Assembly (NCBI RefSeq): GCF_013520985.1
Contig: NZ_JACDTY010000027.1
Coordinates: 1 to 64,000, forward strand
Length of the DNA stretch: 64,000 bases
Reading direction: 5' to 3'
DNA from: Mesorhizobium neociceri
GTDB taxonomy: Bacteria > Pseudomonadota > Alphaproteobacteria > Rhizobiales > Rhizobiaceae
A program made the translations under genes and the position numbers. A model generated the notes under the pieces. The model did not search any database and was not told the DNA's origin. It worked only from the letters and a program-made list of their open reading frames with translations. Below, in pieces: positions 6,444 to 60,973 of this stretch; the first letter of the stretch is position 1; every line of letters begins with the position of its first letter.

Positions 6444-6719
6444 GGGAGAGCGGGTGATAAAGCGGAATCTCAGAAGTCCAAGAAGGCCTATCCGAATAGC
6501 GATCGGTTCGCAGAGGACGGCAAGCGCCGCGACAGCGCCTATGATGCTGCAAAGACGACCATGGTTGCCGAGGCGGCGAAGTCCGCCTTCATCGCAGCGG
6601 CCTTAAAGGGGAAGAAGCCGATCCCTCGCGTCAAACTGCGGCGCCGTTCAATGCTCATAAGCGGCGCCTCCCTCGCTGCCGTTTTGGGTTTGTTGATGTA
6701 CTTGCTAAGCACGAGCTAA
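6444..6719 (+). pseudogene. Tail-anchored small protein without a start codon
   Basis: The frame after a stop at 6441 reads DKAESQKSKKAYPNSDRFAE, a lysine-rich helical middle, then a C-terminal membrane helix (LISGASLAAVLGLLMYLL) and STS-stop at 6719. A Shine-Dalgarno-like GAGGGAG sits at 6442-6448 and a GTG at 6454 is one base out of frame, so loss of a single base would explain the missing start. The coding character is good. The ATG further in would skip half the protein. Family unknown. Confidence 0.45.
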
Positions 6720-6846: not shown

Positions 6847-7960
6847 ATGTCCCCAGCTCGGATTTGCCGTTCAGCTCTGCCTGATGCGATATCCAGGCAG
6901 GGTGTTGGGACCGACGAAACTCCGCCTCGCGCAATGCTAAAGTACATTGCTGAGCAGATTGGCGCCGACGCTGGAAAGTTTGCGCTCTATGCACGCCGTG
7001 AAGAAACGCGTCGCGATCACATTGCTCGCTTGATGGTTTATCTGGCCGCGCGGAGCGCGACGGGGCACTGCGCTGTTAGCTGCAATTCAGGCGGCCACGA
7101 TGTCCGACGACGGAGGCGCGATAGCGAGTGCCACTGTCGCCATATTTCATGAACGCGGATCTCTTCTGCCAGCAATCGACACGATCGAACGGATCGGTCT
7201 TGCCGCCCGCGCCATTGCCCGTCGGCGGGCGGAGAGAACGCTGATCGAAGAAATTTCGGTCGATACGCTTCGATCATTGGACAAGCTGTTGGAGGTTGAC
7301 GCGGCCATCGGTCAGACGCGCTTTCATTGGCTGCGATCAGCGCCGGATGCGCCAGGTGCGTCAAACCTGGTCGGGCTGACCGAACGGATTGTTCCTGCGC
7401 AAGCTAGATATCGATCCGGAATTGCAGATGCGCATATCATCTGGACGGTGGGATCAGATGATCCGTGAGGGCAACGCCACACCAGTGGGCTGGCCAACGA
7501 CTTCAATGCCAGCCGTCGACACGCGCTGATCGTGGCGCAGATAATCAAGCTCGGCCAAAAGCTCACGGACGATGCAGTGTCGATGTTCATCAAGCTGATA
7601 GGTCGGCTGTTCTCGCAAGCCAATAACCGCAAGAAGCAGCGGCATGCAGGTCGGATACCGCCAAAGCGCTACGCATGTTCCTGGATACGATCACAGCGCT
7701 GCAGTCCGCAAACGATTATGGTCGGAACGCGTTGGAGGTTATCGGTCAGGAAGTTGAATGGCACCGGTTGCTTCGGATGAAGCCCGAGCTTGGGTCGATG
7801 GTCGAGGACAACGAGGCGTCGCCGTTAACCTTAGCAGCGGAGCAATATGCGACCGTCAACAAGTATGCCGGCGCGTTCCTGCAGGCGTTCACGTTCCGCT
7901 CAGCGCGCCGCCACGATCCCCCTATTGCGGCGATTTCGTTGCATGAAGAGCGAAGTTCTC
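6847..7960 (+). mobile_element. Tn3-family transposase remnant
   Basis: The pieces match the N-terminal (DUF4158-like) half of TnpA in order. First comes GTDETPPRAMLKYIAEQIGA, then FALYARREETRRDHIARLMV. After a frameshift near 7130 the sense continues in the frame from 7100 (TVAIFHERGSLLPAIDTIER, RFHWLRSAPDAP). Further frames hold KLTDDAVSMFIKLIGRLFSQ and NNRKKQRH near 7550-7640, and ITALQSANDYGRNALEVIGQ, KPELGSMVEDNEASPLTLAA and YAGAFLQAFTFRSARRHDP (7690-7930). The C-terminal catalytic half is absent, and I found no resolvase or 38-bp inverted repeats. At least three frameshifts; non-functional. Confidence 0.8.
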
Positions 7961-8319
7961 ACGCGCCACTCACGCGGCCTACACCGAACGGCTCTTGTCA
8001 TCCGTGCCGGAAATGGATCTGGACTGGCTTAGAAGGCTGCTGGCCAGCCGGAATATCTGACTGAGGGCGGCCAGGGTCACGGCCCTGCTGCTTATCGGAT
8101 GTCAAACGTGGCTAGCAGTGATGCAACTTCTGGAACCGGATTCGGCTCACGACCAAGATCTCAGGAAATGGCCGGCGTGCCGGCATCGGAGCCGAAGGCA
8201 CCGATAGGATTCCTGGCTCTTCTCGCTGATTTGATGACGACTCCATGCCTGTAGAAAAAGGAACGGCCCGGCTTCGCTCGGATCCATCGCGCCGGCAGTC
8301 ACATTTTCGGCTCGCCTTA

Positions 8320-8451
8320 TCAGCCGCTAGATGGCAACAAGCCGAATACAACCAGCAGGACAACGAAAATAGCAAAGGCAAACACCACCCCCCACATTAG
8401 CACCCGTCTCGTACCGCGCTGCGCTTCACTGCGAGATAAGTCTTTCGCCAT
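8320..8451 (-). CDS. 43-residue membrane protein, stress-regulated
   Basis: From ATG 8451: MAKDLSRSEAQRGTRRVLMW, one membrane helix (VVFAFAIFVVLLVVFGLL) and PSSG-stop at 8320. The N-terminus is basic, so it should stay in the cytoplasm. A perfect EcfG promoter lies 31 bases upstream (8506-8482), which strongly supports this short gene. It is too small for most gene finders. Function unknown; single-helix stress micro-proteins often modulate envelope complexes, but that is only analogy. Confidence 0.65.
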   Translation of the reverse strand: MAKDLSRSEAQRGTRRVLMWGVVFAFAIFVVLLVVFGLLPSSG

Positions 8452-8481
8452 AGCTCAGATCCTCGCTTCGGCTGAACTAGC

Positions 8482-8506
8482 AACGGGATTGCCGCTTTGA
8501 GGTTCC
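8482..8506 (-). promoter_or_regulatory. EcfG-type promoter (perfect)
   Basis: GGAAC 8506-8502, 16-base spacer, CGTT 8485-8482 on the minus strand, directly before the 43-residue membrane protein gene. Confidence 0.75.
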
Positions 8507-9149
8507 CCAGCTAGTTCGACAAGCAATCTTTCGGCGGTGGCGCGCCGCCGATCGTGTCGGTTGGCGGCAGGGCACGTGCTTCGCTTTCGGATAGGAGCGC
8601 ACGCCACTCTTTCTCTTGCGACATACATAGCGCAAGGGTTAGGAACGGCGCACGCAATATGCTGCCGTTGACAGCGGTGCCGACACACTACGGCGGTGTC
8701 AAACGGCGGCACCCGGGGCGAGTAATTCCGCCACCCGCCGATCTCTCTCGAGCGAGCGAAGAACCTCGCCGAGCATCCGCTACTGGACGCGCGTGGGCTG
8801 CAGTCTATTCCAATGATGGTCGTCGCTTTGTCCATGTGAGGATCCCTAGTAAGGCGTGACAGCTCGATACCGAATGGCACGGGGCGAAGTTTTGAGTATC
8901 CCCACCGATGGCTTCAAAGTCGACGATACCCGCTCTTTACCTTTGAATTTTCCGGATCATAAAATTGCCCCCCCCCAAGGTCGGTGAGCTGATCCGATCG
9001 TCCAGGCTGCTCGGGGTTGCGCACTTGCGGTTCAGCGGGTTGGGGTTCAGGCGCGGTTCTTGAGAAGCGGCCGGCAGCCCGTTGTCTGAACGCTGTGGTG
9101 ATCCTCCTGTCGAAGCCTGCTTCTAGGAAAGACACTAAGATCTCGATGA
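8507..9149. other. Region without a firm gene
   Basis: A minus-strand frame at 8914-9135 (73 codons, proline-rich, ending SKVKSGYRRL) and a 37-codon frame starting MSQEKEW near 8627 look mildly coding, but neither has a ribosome site or family support. A run of nine C residues near 8968-8976 lies in the first of these. Confidence 0.35.
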
Positions 9150-10079
9150 TTAGCGAGATGGCGAACGCTGAACGTTGCGAACAAACAGCGCCTCCTCTTC
9201 GTCTCTCTGCTTGCCACCCAGCGCCCCAGCAACGCTTGCTATGAACGCGCCTATCACCAACGACAGGGCACCCAGGAGCGCAAAGGTGGCACTCGCTTTC
9301 CGGGCGGTGTCGGCCGCCGCTTTGGCCTTGTTTTTGGCAGCGTCAACGTTGGCAAGCACAGTGTCGACCCTAGCTTTAGCATCCGCCTCTGACAGACCGG
9401 TGCGGGAAGCGACCAGTCGCGCCAGATAGGTTTTATCATCGGCTGAAACCTCGCCATTCGCGGCGCTGGCGATCAGGATGCGTGTTGCCTGCCCAGTCGT
9501 GGCAGCATCGTTTTGGTCAGCTGCGGCCACAGTCCCGGTATTGGTTGGCCGAAACAGCGTATCGACAAAGTAGCCGAGAAAATTGTCAGTTGAGCGAGCC
9601 CCGTTGCTCGCCGCGGCGGAGGAGGCCCCTACCGCGGCGCCAGAGGCCACGGTGGAGGCTGCTTGCACACCCGAACCCAGTGCTGAGGAAAGCGCCGAGC
9701 CGAGAACGCCAGCAACCAACAAGGTCGCCAACGCCCAGGCGAGAAACCCATGAGCGGTATCACGAAAATAGACTTCGTCGGTGTGAACGTTCACCCATGT
9801 GGTGCGCAGCCGACCGGTAAGATAGCCGCCAACTCCGGCTGACAGCCACTGCACCACGACGAGCCAGGCGGCGGCCGAAACCGTGAAGGTTGTGGCGGAG
9901 GCGCTCGATCCGGTCCAGGGCGAAACCATTGTCAGCCCAAGACCTGAACCGACCAGCAGAAGGACAACTGACAGGGTCGATGCCGCAAAGGCGCCAGCGA
10001 CAATCGGGCCCCAGCTGACCGCCGATGAGGAAGATTCAGTAACCGACGAAACGTCCGTTGGTGAGAGGGCGGTTTGCAT
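9150..10079 (-). CDS. Hypothetical four-helix membrane protein
   Basis: 309 residues from ATG 10079. Membrane helices lie at about 24-50 (VAGAFAASTLSVVLLLVGSG), 66-88, 110-135 (AHGFLAWALATLLVAGVLG) and near 270-290 (FALLGALSLVIGAFIASVAG). The loop between the third and fourth is long, alanine-rich and probably helical (residues 190-265, with AAKNKAKAAADTARKA). The N-terminus is polar. The family is common in Hyphomicrobiales but has no established function. It follows the 25-residue membrane ORF at 10089-10166 by 9 bases, so it is probably expressed with it. Confidence 0.8.
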   Translation of the reverse strand: MQTALSPTDVSSVTESSSSAVSWGPIVAGAFAASTLSVVLLLVGSGLGLTMVSPWTGSSASATTFTVSAAAWLVVVQWLSAGVGGYLTGRLRTTWVNVHTDEVYFRDTAHGFLAWALATLLVAGVLGSALSSALGSGVQAASTVASGAAVGASSAAASNGARSTDNFLGYFVDTLFRPTNTGTVAAADQNDAATTGQATRILIASAANGEVSADDKTYLARLVASRTGLSEADAKARVDTVLANVDAAKNKAKAAADTARKASATFALLGALSLVIGAFIASVAGALGGKQRDEEEALFVRNVQRSPSR

Positions 10080-10088
10080 TTGCCCCCC

Positions 10089-10166
10089 CTAACGCGCAAA
10101 GAGCATGAGCAGAATGATGATGGGGATCGGAACCCCGAGCAACCACAGCAAGATACCGCGTCCCAT
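10089..10166 (-). CDS. 25-residue membrane micro-protein
   Basis: From ATG 10166, behind a strong AGGAGGAT ribosome site: MGRGILLWLLGVPIPIIILL and MLFAR-stop. It is a single hydrophobic helix with a Pro-Ile-Pro kink. It is clearly related to the 27-residue protein at 49271-49354 (same GILLWLLGxPIPIIIxL core), which supports both as real. Function unknown. Confidence 0.6.
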   Translation of the reverse strand: MGRGILLWLLGVPIPIIILLMLFAR

Positions 10167-14374: not shown

Positions 14375-15594
14375 CACGTGCCTCCGAGTATCTGCAGCGG
14401 AATTGTGACCAGAGCGAGCACGAAGCCCAGCGCGATAATAAAGATCACCGCGGCGTTCGAAATGAAGCCATTGCGGTGCTCGCCGACATAGCGCTCGTCG
14501 TTCAGCAAAAACAGGAATGGGACGACCGTTAGTGGCAGGCTGGCCGCCGTCAGCGCCATGGAAAAGATGGTGAGCTTTAGCGGGTCGATCCCGAGCGTGA
14601 TCGGGACGGCGGCGAGGAGCAATGAAAGTGTGTAGACGGCGCTGAAACCCGGATCGTCGCGTGGCTTGCGATCCTCGCCCCATGCCCAGCCGAACCCTTG
14701 GGCCACCAGATAAGCCTGTTGCAGCCCCACCTCGAGTGCGGCCCCGAAACAGGCAATGGCGAGAGATGCAACGAACAGGATGAAGCCCCAGAAGCCGAAT
14801 ATCGGAATCAGCATCAATGGCAATTGGTGATAGTCATTCACCTGATCGATACCGTGCGTCGCGAGCACGAGAGCGGCCACGATCAACACGCCAATCGAGA
14901 TCGTGCCCCCGAAGGTCATACCCATTCCCGCAATGGCCCTATTGGTTCCGAGATAGCTTTCGTCCCAGTGATCCTCGATAGCGCCCGAGGAGTAAAACAT
15001 GAACAGGTAAGGCGATATCGATGCACCGAGAATGCTGACCGCCATGAACCAGTAATTTGCACCATCATGGGCCGGTAGCGAGGGGACGGCGGCGGTCGCG
15101 ACGGCTTTCCAGTCGGGCTTCAACATCACCGCTCCAACGACAAAACACAGCGTCACCAGACCGAGGATCGACACACCTTTTTCGATAAAGCCGAACGTGC
15201 CTTTCCAGAGCAAAAGCCATGCCAGCAAAGCCGCCGGAAGTGCCCACCATTGGAAACCTATCCCGGTGGCAAATTCGAGTGCGATGGCGACGCCGCCGAT
15301 CTCGGCGGATAGAACCATGAAATTGACGAGCAGCGCGGCGAGAAAAGGCCACAGAAAAACATTGAACCCAAATCTCTCCCGGATGCCATCGGAGATCGTA
15401 TGATGGCTCATGGCAGCGAACCGACCGGCCATCTCGACCAGAAAGATGATGCAGATGGTGCCGAGAACCACAGCCCAGATCAGCTGGAAACCAAAAGTTG
15501 CGCCAGCTTGTGCGGCCGTCGCCATTGATCCGACTTCGAGGAAGCCGCCGACGCTGGTGACAATGCCAAGCGATATTTCCAGGAGTTTCTTCAT
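14374..15594 (-). CDS. Nramp-family divalent metal transporter
   Basis: 406 residues from ATG 15594. Eleven or so membrane helices are visible, in the pattern of Nramp/MntH-like proteins: SVGGFLEVGSMATAAQAGAT for helix 1, EMAGRFAAMSHHTISDGIRE after helix 2-3, GASISPYLFMFYSSGAIEDH for helix 6 and GAALEVGLQQAYLVAQGFGW later. The canonical DPGN of helix 1 is replaced by a GFLEVGS motif and the MPH of helix 6 by SPY, so substrate preference may differ from classical Mn/Fe importers. It overlaps the lipoprotein gene upstream (ATGA) and two PRC-barrel genes downstream, forming a tight four-gene operon. Confidence 0.75.
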   Translation of the reverse strand: MKKLLEISLGIVTSVGGFLEVGSMATAAQAGATFGFQLIWAVVLGTICIIFLVEMAGRFAAMSHHTISDGIRERFGFNVFLWPFLAALLVNFMVLSAEIGGVAIALEFATGIGFQWWALPAALLAWLLLWKGTFGFIEKGVSILGLVTLCFVVGAVMLKPDWKAVATAAVPSLPAHDGANYWFMAVSILGASISPYLFMFYSSGAIEDHWDESYLGTNRAIAGMGMTFGGTISIGVLIVAALVLATHGIDQVNDYHQLPLMLIPIFGFWGFILFVASLAIACFGAALEVGLQQAYLVAQGFGWAWGEDRKPRDDPGFSAVYTLSLLLAAVPITLGIDPLKLTIFSMALTAASLPLTVVPFLFLLNDERYVGEHRNGFISNAAVIFIIALGFVLALVTIPLQILGGT

Positions 15595-16264: not shown

Positions 16265-16289
16265 GGAACCTGTCCAGACTTCCGGCGTT
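16265..16289 (+). promoter_or_regulatory. EcfG-type promoter (perfect)
   Basis: GGAAC 16265-16269, 16-base spacer, CGTT 16286-16289, 31 bases before the csbD-like ATG. A ribosome site AGGAGG follows at 16307-16312. Confidence 0.8.
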
Positions 16290-16320
16290 TCAGAAGCTCT
16301 GCCATCAGGAGGCCAAAGCC

Positions 16321-16524
16321 ATGGATTGGAACCGCGTTGAAGGAAACTGGAAACAGGTAAAGGGGAAGGTGAAGGAACAGTGGGGCAAGCTCACTGACGA
16401 CGACCTCGATCGCATTGCCGGCAAGCGAGATCAACTCGAAGGCAAGATTCAGGAGAGATACGGCATCGAGAGGGACCTGGTCCGGCGCGATGTCGATGAC
16501 TGGTACCGGCAGCAGGGGTGGTAG
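16321..16524 (+). CDS. CsbD-family stress protein
   Basis: 67 residues from ATG 16321 behind AGGAGG. It is a full-length CsbD-like protein: MDWNRVEGNWKQVKGKVKEQ then WGKLTDDDLDRIAGKRDQLE, ending VDDWYRQQGW. It is a small, very hydrophilic, helical protein of the kind induced by general stress in many bacteria; the mechanism is unknown. A perfect EcfG promoter lies immediately upstream. The Ku gene starts six bases after its stop, so ku is read from the same stress promoter. Confidence 0.92.
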   Translation: MDWNRVEGNWKQVKGKVKEQWGKLTDDDLDRIAGKRDQLEGKIQERYGIERDLVRRDVDDWYRQQGW

Positions 16525-16529
16525 ACTTG

Positions 16530-17357
16530 GTGGCGCCGCGTGCCGTCTGGAAAGGTTTTTTGAAGGTCGGTTCGGTTGCCTGCAGCGTAAAAATTATCGG
16601 CGCCACCAGCGAATCTTCGAAGATCCACTTCAAGATACTCAACCGCGCCGACGGGTTGCCGGTCAAAAGCGCCTATATCGACGAGGAAACGGGTGAAACC
16701 GTTGAATTCGAGAACCAAGTGAAAGGCTTTGAGCTCGACAAAGATGATTTCATTCAGGTCGAGCCGGACGAGATAAAAAAATTGAAGCTGACGTCTCAGC
16801 ACACGCTCGAAGTCGGCGAATTTGTATCGCTGGACGATGTCGATACGCGCTACCTCGAAAAGCCCTATTACCTGATACCGTCGGACGGCGTCGCCGCCGA
16901 GCCGTTCGAAGTCATTCGAAAAGCGATGGAAAAGAAGAAGGTGGCCGCGCGGTCATGCGTGGTGCTCTACCAGCGCGGACGAGAAGTGCTCATCCAGCCC
17001 TTTGAAAAAGGCATGCTGCTGACCGAACTTCGGACCCCCAACGAGATGACGTCTGAAGGCAGCGTCTTCAAGGACATCAAGAAGACGGACTACGACCCCG
17101 AGTTGCTCGAGATCGCCGGCATGCTGATCGACAAGAAGGTCACCAAATTCGATCCGTCCAAATTCGAGGACACCTATGAAGATGCTCTGATCGCGATGAT
17201 AGATGCGAAACGAAAGGGTAAAGCCCCACCGAAACCCGCGCCGAAGCCGAAAGAAAATGTCGTCAATCTTGCCGAGATTCTCCGCAAGAGCCTAGCACAT
17301 GAAGGCGGCGGAGCGCCAAAATCCAAGGCTGGTTCATCGAAGCGCAAATCTGCATAG
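16530..17357 (+). CDS. ku: Ku protein, non-homologous end joining
   Basis: 275 residues from GTG 16530, chosen because bacterial Ku proteins begin MAPRxxWKGFLKVG (here MAPRAVWKGFLKVGSVACSV); an in-frame GTG at 16518 is less likely. Ku forms a homodimeric ring on double-strand DNA ends and recruits LigD. The Ku core is complete: FKILNRADGLPVKSAYIDEE, then GFELDKDDFIQVEPDEI and KRTDYDP-like KKTDYDPELLEIAGMLI. The C-terminus is the usual basic proline-lysine tail (PPKPAPKPKEN, SKAGSSKRKSA) that helps DNA binding. It shares the csbD stress promoter. Two LigD-type ligases lie 33 and 41 kb away in this window. Confidence 0.95.
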   Translation: MAPRAVWKGFLKVGSVACSVKIIGATSESSKIHFKILNRADGLPVKSAYIDEETGETVEFENQVKGFELDKDDFIQVEPDEIKKLKLTSQHTLEVGEFVSLDDVDTRYLEKPYYLIPSDGVAAEPFEVIRKAMEKKKVAARSCVVLYQRGREVLIQPFEKGMLLTELRTPNEMTSEGSVFKDIKKTDYDPELLEIAGMLIDKKVTKFDPSKFEDTYEDALIAMIDAKRKGKAPPKPAPKPKENVVNLAEILRKSLAHEGGGAPKSKAGSSKRKSA

Positions 17358-22726: not shown

Positions 22727-22864
22727 GTGGCTCAAGCTATCTCATGGACAGTGGTTATTTTGGTCGTGGTGGTCAGCATCTGGCTCTGGTTCGATCGCCA
22801 CAAGGGACGCCCTGATGGCGGCGCCCAGCAACCTGCACCCCATGCGATCGACCAAGGCAGTTAA
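22727..22864 (+). CDS. 45-residue membrane protein
   Basis: From GTG 22727: MAQAISWTVVILVVVVSIWL W, one membrane helix, then a polar tail FDRHKGRPDGGAQQPAPHAI DQGS. The ribosome site is weak. It has the same overall build as the other single-helix proteins of this island. Family unknown. Confidence 0.45.
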   Translation: MAQAISWTVVILVVVVSIWLWFDRHKGRPDGGAQQPAPHAIDQGS

Positions 22865-49270: not shown

Positions 49271-49354
49271 CTAATGCAAATATCCCAAAAGCCACAGAAT
49301 GATGATAATTGGGATCGGGATTCCGAGGAGCCAGAGTAGTCCGCCTCTTAGCAT
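49271..49354 (-). CDS. 27-residue membrane micro-protein, stress-regulated
   Basis: From ATG 49354 behind GGGAGGAAA: MLRGGLLWLLGIPIPIIIIL then WLLGYLH-stop at 49271. A single hydrophobic helix with a PIP kink, paralogous to the 25-residue protein at 10089-10166. A perfect EcfG promoter lies 31 bases upstream (49410-49386). The conserved core, ribosome site and promoter together make this a firm gene despite its size. Function unknown. Confidence 0.72.
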   Translation of the reverse strand: MLRGGLLWLLGIPIPIIIILWLLGYLH

Positions 49355-49385: not shown

Positions 49386-49410
49386 AACGCTCCTCGATGG
49401 GCTTAGTTCC
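49386..49410 (-). promoter_or_regulatory. EcfG-type promoter (perfect)
   Basis: GGAAC 49410-49406, N16, CGTT 49389-49386 on minus, facing the 27-residue membrane protein gene. Confidence 0.78.
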
Positions 49411-60832: not shown

Positions 60833-60874
60833 GATTCATATCCAGCCCGACGTGATTCATATCCAGCCCGACGT
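60833..60874. repeat. Tandem 21-base direct repeat
   Basis: Two exact head-to-tail copies (60833-60853, 60854-60874) of a unit starting GATTCATATCCAG and ending CCCGACGT. The second unit holds the last codons and stop of the small membrane gene at 60857. Confidence 0.8.
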
Positions 60875-60973
60875 CAAGTAGACGACCAGTGCCGTGATGG
60901 CGACGGAAATAGGCACGGCCGCCAGCCAACTCGCCTCCAGGAACCAGGTCTCCTTGTCACCAAGCATGGACAT
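60857..60973 (-). CDS. 38-residue membrane protein
   Basis: From ATG 60973: MSMLGDKETWFLEASWLAAV PISVAITALVVYLTSGWI-stop. A single membrane helix covers residues 15-35. A purine-rich AAGAGAAG precedes the start. Its 3' end lies in the 21-base tandem repeat, so seven codons plus the stop have been duplicated beyond it. Function unknown. Confidence 0.5.
   Translation of the reverse strand: MSMLGDKETWFLEASWLAAVPISVAITALVVYLTSGWI

Follow-up and report, generated by a model that had tools for sequence, protein, structure and literature searches.

Introduction

Genome annotation frequently overlooks small membrane proteins. AcrZ, CydX, KdpF and MgtS are small single-helix regulatory subunits of known membrane complexes, and subunits of the AcrZ, CydX or KdpF type need not be encoded beside their complex. 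In Alphaproteobacteria, it is established that the PhyR-NepR switch frees EcfG under stress. For the EcfG regulon of Rhizobium etli, GGAAC-N16-CGTT is reported as the consensus of EcfG1 (PMC3892343); for Sphingopyxis the same consensus is given, and the -10 box is described as variable or flexible (PMC7083833). A limited literature search found no paper naming small membrane proteins of the alphaproteobacterial general stress response.

The present study concerns a short open reading frame (ORF) at position 8320 of the window, by which we mean the whole 64,000-nucleotide stretch of Mesorhizobium DNA that was analysed. An earlier note had proposed that this frame specifies a 43-residue membrane protein placed directly behind a perfect stress promoter, and that four other short ORFs of the window form a group of stress micro-proteins with it. 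The comparisons described below make it likely that the 8320 product is a real, EcfG-controlled membrane protein.

Results

The 8320 gene and its promoter

The locus comprises the following features:

8506-8482, minus strand: EcfG-type general-stress promoter GGAACCTCAAAGCGGCAATCCCGTT, GGAAC-N16-CGTT, matching nine of nine consensus bases
8461..8464, minus strand: GAGG, a putative ribosome-binding site 9 nt ahead of the ATG, found by eye
8451-8320, minus strand: 43-codon ORF MAKDLSRSEAQRGTRRVLMWGVVFAFAIFVVLLVVFGLLPSSG (43 aa plus stop) with an ATG start; short-type member of the family described below
8404..8442, minus strand: charged, conserved N-terminal motif DLSRSEAQRGTRR, codons 4-16, predicted to be cytosolic
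8335..8391, minus strand: predicted transmembrane helix, codons 21-39, the most hydrophobic 19-residue stretch (hydropathy and AlphaFold2)

The promoter is perfect at all nine bases, as had been claimed, and the ATG does start at base 31 behind it, with 30 nt between CGTT and ATG. Taken singly, a perfect match of this kind is weak proof, because in the whole genome (7.29 Mb) the EcfG motif occurs less often than its reversed control (123 sites with spacers of 16-17, versus 209). The window, however, contains 14 sites against 1.08 expected from the genome (spacers of 15-18 were allowed; 11 sites have a spacer of 16 and three a spacer of 17). Dinucleotide shuffles of the window yielded 2.04 sites on average, and none of 100 shuffles reached 14. 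This local clustering, together with the conserved position of the promoter in relatives (see below), places the 8482-8506 site above chance. A terminator scan of positions 7900-9200 found none. As for the regulatory cascade, the one component sought, NepR (PF18557), is encoded on contig C55 of the genome, above the model cut-off (E 4.2e-15). Beside the NepR gene, at least five perfect EcfG sites lie within 3 kb (G000 C55, 207881-210867), as expected of a self-regulated stress locus.

The 8320 protein has fewer than 50 residues and one predicted transmembrane helix. Its maximal 19-residue hydropathy is 3.1, with five K/R residues before the hydrophobic stretch and none after it. AlphaFold2, run with a 20-row alignment, returned one helix spanning residues 7-42 (mean pLDDT 80.1, pTM 0.44), which together with the hydropathy bears out the single-helix architecture proposed in the earlier note. 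In all 38 complete members of the family (38/38), more K/R residues precede the hydrophobic peak than occur in the 15 residues following it. Hydropathy and charge distribution thus make it very likely that the 8320 protein sits in the inner membrane with its N-terminus inside and its C-terminus outside.

A family of micro-proteins in Mesorhizobium

A protein search with the 8320 product found matches in 10 of 61 genomes, its own included. A profile built from ten members matched 37 of 146 genomes of the genus, again with the own genome counted, 34 of them below 1e-10 and three (G031, G090 and G113) through weak partial matches only. Conservation in related genomes, a check suggested at the outset, is therefore found. 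The own copy, single in its genome, scored E 3.6e-21. Beyond the genus, 394 genomes sampled from the taxonomic family gave one convincing match in another genus (G539, E 7.9e-15) and one doubtful match inside a 400-aa frame (G286, E 7.5e-4), and 385 genomes sampled from the class gave the own genome as sole match, in each case among the scored candidates; since no more than 18-19 candidates were scored for any one genome in these wider searches, distant members may have been missed. Named loci encoding relatives all belong to Mesorhizobium (15/15).

The 8320 product had no Pfam or NCBIfam match at E 0.1. Across 20 members, the same models gave scattered weak matches, the strongest being PLDc_N (7.4e-5, in one member) and the commonest DUF3999 (five members, best 0.0041). 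With no consistent model match, a known Pfam or NCBIfam domain was rejected. Searching plasmids by tblastn with the 8320 protein gave no match at E 0.01; with relative L026 as query, matches appeared on four Mesorhizobium plasmids, where the long relatives are annotated as "hypothetical protein" in three cases and the fourth has no listed gene (incomplete table). The stress-response and small-protein literature, in titles and abstract openings for the most part, does not name the family. As judged by these comparisons, the 8320 gene is a member of an undescribed, largely Mesorhizobium-specific micro-protein family.

Of the 48 profile matches, 47 (all except G113) were taken on, giving 45 distinct rows. 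Seven rows (L063, L064, the truncated L060 copy, L067, L069, L010 and L070) were truncated, frame-broken or without a matching start, and were left out of the promoter count. In the L060 locus (G104 C5:48007-52202), an intact gene copy lies directly behind the truncated copy. It is the truncated copy that bears the promoter, and since one of its bases is unread, the assembly may be at fault here. The complete members number 38 and are of three types: 19 short with an ATG start, 11 long with an ATG start and a Pro/Asn/Gln-rich tail after the helix, and eight short with a GTG start. A tail resembling that of the long type (KRAPEQNRGGNAP...NPQENTEMPGQQ) is also seen in L075 (G035, 14953-15498, minus strand), where the hydrophobic stretch ahead of it is a different one; the tail therefore looks like an exchangeable module.

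Among 20 diverse members, R7, G13, T14, W20 and L32 are invariant, and the motif SRxxEQRGT...W ahead of the helix is common to them with few exceptions. Eleven positions are invariant or nearly so. Seven of them fall within the charged N-terminal part, up to and including W20; the other four (F29, L32, F36 and P40) lie in or after the membrane stretch.

Selection on the reading frame

Because the window copy is too distant from all other members for a clean dS, selection was measured on the latter. Of the 38 complete rows, 35 entered the codon analysis, L062 being omitted for an indel and L065 and L066 on account of the E-value limit. Among the family rows, L065/L066 and L060/L023 each represent two copies from a single genome. 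Fifteen close pairs, non-overlapping yet phylogenetically dependent, gave a pooled pS of 0.204, a pN of 0.065 and a dN/dS of 0.287. Read in the +1 and +2 frames, the same pairs gave 1.06 and 2.67. Sequence data of this kind indicate that the family frame is under purifying selection in the relatives. The earlier note had held that a lack of such selection would speak against the gene; run on the relatives, the comparison favours the gene, and the window copy is consistent with it. Aligned with 34 relatives, the 8320 ORF shows identities of 0.64, 0.73 and 0.44 at the three codon positions, with pN of 0.23-0.41 and pS of 0.49-0.87.

Conservation of the promoter in relatives

A sequence of the form GGAAC-N16/17-CGTT or -AGTT occurs 30-52 nt before the start in 24 of the 30 complete ATG-start members (16 of 30 if CGTT alone is counted). 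The perfect CGTT form lies 30-37 nt upstream of 14 of the 19 short ATG members, the other five having none. In the 11 long members, where the distance is 34-52 nt, CGTT is found in two, AGTT in eight and neither in one. No such promoter precedes any of the eight GTG-start members. EcfG control is consequently not universal in the family, as it would be missing from 8/8 GTG, 5/19 short and 1/11 long members. For comparison, random 120-mers drawn from control regions carry the CGTT form at a distance of 20-60 nt in 0.094% of cases and the AGTT form in 0.028%. A perfect promoter also stands upstream in three of the rows left out (truncated L060, L010 and L070). We infer that AGTT may work as a -10 variant in Mesorhizobium.

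In the 17 relatives with a 16-base spacer, identity to the window's promoter region averages 31% in the spacer, 29% in the preceding 15 bases and 31% in the following 20. With identity in spacer and flanks as low as about 30%, the conserved promoter amounts to a footprint, and control of the 8320 gene by EcfG appears highly probable. The family, the frame selection in relatives and this footprint support the central claim of the earlier note, namely that a genuine micro-protein gene lies behind a stress promoter. The same three lines led us to reject a chance ORF, and 8320 is almost certainly a real gene.

Other micro-proteins of the window

The proposed group of five comprises, besides 8320, four ORFs, listed here with the promoter of one of them:

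49386..49410, minus strand: perfect EcfG promoter of the 49271 gene, from the motif scan
49271..49354, minus strand: 27-aa membrane micro-protein MLRGGLLWLLGIPIPIIIILWLLGYLH; perfect promoter in nine of ten other 27-aa members
10089..10166, minus strand: 25-aa protein, MGRGILLWLLGVPIPIIILLMLFAR, related to that of 49271; AGGAGG ahead of its ATG; perfect EcfG promoter absent
22727..22864, plus strand: 45-aa micro-protein with a GTG start; relatives present, with a tail like GGAQQPSPHAIDQNG; no perfect EcfG promoter
60857..60973, minus strand: 38-aa micro-protein; relatives present, which share an N-terminal motif like DKETRFLEA; no perfect EcfG promoter

The grouping is only partly borne out. 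Relatives in other genomes of the genus exist for each of the five ORFs, but a perfect EcfG promoter is found only at 8320 and 49271. Counting the own genome, relatives of the 49271 and 10089 types occur in 40 of 61 genomes, those of 22727 in 20 and those of 60857 in 16. The promoter check covered 30 of 53 matches for the 49271/10089 types, 20 of 23 for 60857 and 20 of 21 for 22727, with identical proteins recurring among the rows. Within these loci, the perfect promoter precedes 10 of 11 members of the 27-aa 49271 type (the window's own included) and none of the 18 relatives of the 25-aa 10089 type, five of which have a GGAAC-N16/17-CATT variant; a 26-aa relative (L129) has the CATT variant as well. 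None of the 20 relatives of 60857 has a perfect promoter (GGAAC-N16-AGTT in three), nor has any of the 20 relatives of 22727 (CGTC in one). Most of these 20 22727-type loci encode a tail like GGAQQPSPHAIDQNG after the helix. The variant promoters in some relatives leave open a weaker stress link for 10089 and 60857. A search of plasmids with the 27-aa 49271 protein gave no match. The 10089 ORF directly precedes a 309-aa ORF at 10079-9150. A further short ORF (52 aa, hydrophobic stretch at its end) lies at 6561-6719 on the plus strand of the window.

Genomic setting

We compared 20 family regions (310.8 kb; 19 of the 48 profile matches plus G539) with 20 control regions (317.6 kb), 19 of the latter situated on contigs that also bear family loci. 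In the family regions, 27 further perfect EcfG sites were counted, where the densities of the respective genomes would predict 6.5. The control regions contain 14, about twice the genome average, and the direct comparison of 27 with 14 is weak (one-sided P 0.025). Ten "stress neighbour" genes of the window were also followed: Ku, two DNA ligases, DUF4142, DUF892, CsbD, BrkB/YihY-like, Nramp, one that we take to be a glycine-zipper gene, and the 42468 gene. Eight have domain matches; to one of the ten we gave, as an assumption, the name DUF2293, where the model search returned a weak DUF5710 match only. One or more of the ten occur in 12 of 20 family regions and in two of 20 control regions, a difference whose P value is descriptive because the genes were picked after a first look. 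No neighbouring ORF of at least 70 aa is common to more than five of 21 stretches, so no constant neighbour names a partner.

Adjoining the 8320 gene, positions ~7000-7950 show up to 92% identity to Tn3-family transposase genes carried on Mesorhizobium and Xanthobacter plasmids, with no long ORF. Elsewhere in the window (16265-17357, plus strand), a perfect EcfG promoter is followed by a CsbD-like gene (16321-16524), whose end runs into the start of the Ku ORF (16518-17357). In this arrangement, end-joining repair seems to be linked to the general stress response. The pattern of EcfG sites and neighbour genes suggests accessory stress islands, as an association and not as proof of mobility.

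Discussion

The 8320 gene is probably stress-induced. Under stress, the PhyR-NepR switch would release EcfG, which would transcribe the gene from its perfect GGAAC-N16-CGTT promoter. The short mRNA would be translated into the 43-residue protein, to be inserted as one inner-membrane helix with the N-terminus inside. The SRxxEQRGT...W face might then dock on a partner and tune it during stress; a core complex of the inner membrane, or one bound to the membrane, is the likeliest candidate. The N-terminal face suggests itself as the docking site because most of the best conserved positions (7/11) lie at or before W20. Action on a partner through this motif is the reading that we favour, as a plausible one that stops somewhat short of being probable.

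Its main rival is that the protein acts on the bilayer itself, accumulating until membrane potential or fluidity falls and metabolism slows, with no specific partner. Small size and a single helix suit such a role, the 27-aa YohP of Escherichia coli is reported to act likewise (PMC12719787), and the window has in 49271 a second membrane micro-protein, of 27 aa, that lies behind a perfect EcfG promoter. Conservation, however, is concentrated at or before W20 instead of in the membrane stretch, and members of the long type have a further tail behind the helix. We regard bilayer action as rather doubtful for 8320.

A growth-stopping hydrophobic peptide, similar to a type I toxin or a dormancy effector and harmful when over-produced, is a less likely product still. 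One could point to a short hydrophobic protein lying beside transposase-like DNA and to the patchy distribution of the family. On the other hand, expression seems tied to a conserved stress promoter, the relatives are under purifying selection, and a scan restricted to sigma-70-type promoters found none facing the ORF.

It is also conceivable, and quite improbable, that the family is real and the window copy is a decaying accessory gene that no longer matters. The copy shares no more than 41-60% identity with the other 19 aligned members and has A10 where nearly all others have E; Tn3-like DNA adjoins it, and truncated or frame-broken copies exist in other genomes. Yet its frame is intact, its promoter is perfect and its divergence from 34 relatives is concentrated at third codon positions. 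Finally, a promoter driving a small RNA across an incidental ORF, a notion that the perfect promoter, the mere GAGG stretch as ribosome-binding site and the EcfG-driven non-coding RNA ReC64 reported in R. etli (PMC3892343) might encourage, is scarcely credible, and a promoter for non-coding RNA only was rejected, given codon-level selection confined to the ORF frame and a protein motif kept among members whose upstream DNA, the promoter apart, shows about 30% identity.

The family also points to accessory DNA that may extend the core stress regulon. We put forward, tentatively and as a possibility only, that Mesorhizobium carries accessory "stress cassettes" composed of dense EcfG promoters, Ku, DNA ligase, DUF892, DUF4142, CsbD and membrane micro-proteins. 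These would be joined to the core stress response simply via EcfG promoters, with the 8320 family as a recurrent, selectively maintained membrane effector. The conserved promoter, the selected frame and the defined N-terminal motif mean that standard methods (deletion, tagging, pull-down) can address the role of 8320 in a bacterium of root nodules.

The 8320 promoter has the GGAAC-N16-CGTT form of the EcfG regulons of R. etli and Sphingopyxis, and the passages on those regulons name no such micro-protein family (PMC3892343, PMC7083833). In size and single-helix architecture the protein resembles AcrZ, CydX, KdpF and MgtS, with the difference that no partner complex was found for the 8320 family. 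Closer at hand is WP_013525235.1, a long member on the Mesorhizobium plasmid pMESCI01 annotated as "hypothetical protein", which shares the N-terminal motif and helix and differs in its length of 87 aa and in the Pro/Asn/Gln-rich tail after the helix. Like E. coli YohP, the 8320 protein has fewer than 50 residues, a single helix, no enzymatic domain and a link to stress, and its site of action would be the membrane. Unlike YohP, as described in PMC12719787, it is placed under the alphaproteobacterial EcfG and has a longer charged N-terminal motif, and we claim no homology between the two. Set beside these systems, the 8320 family is a new family within the stress-linked small membrane proteins.
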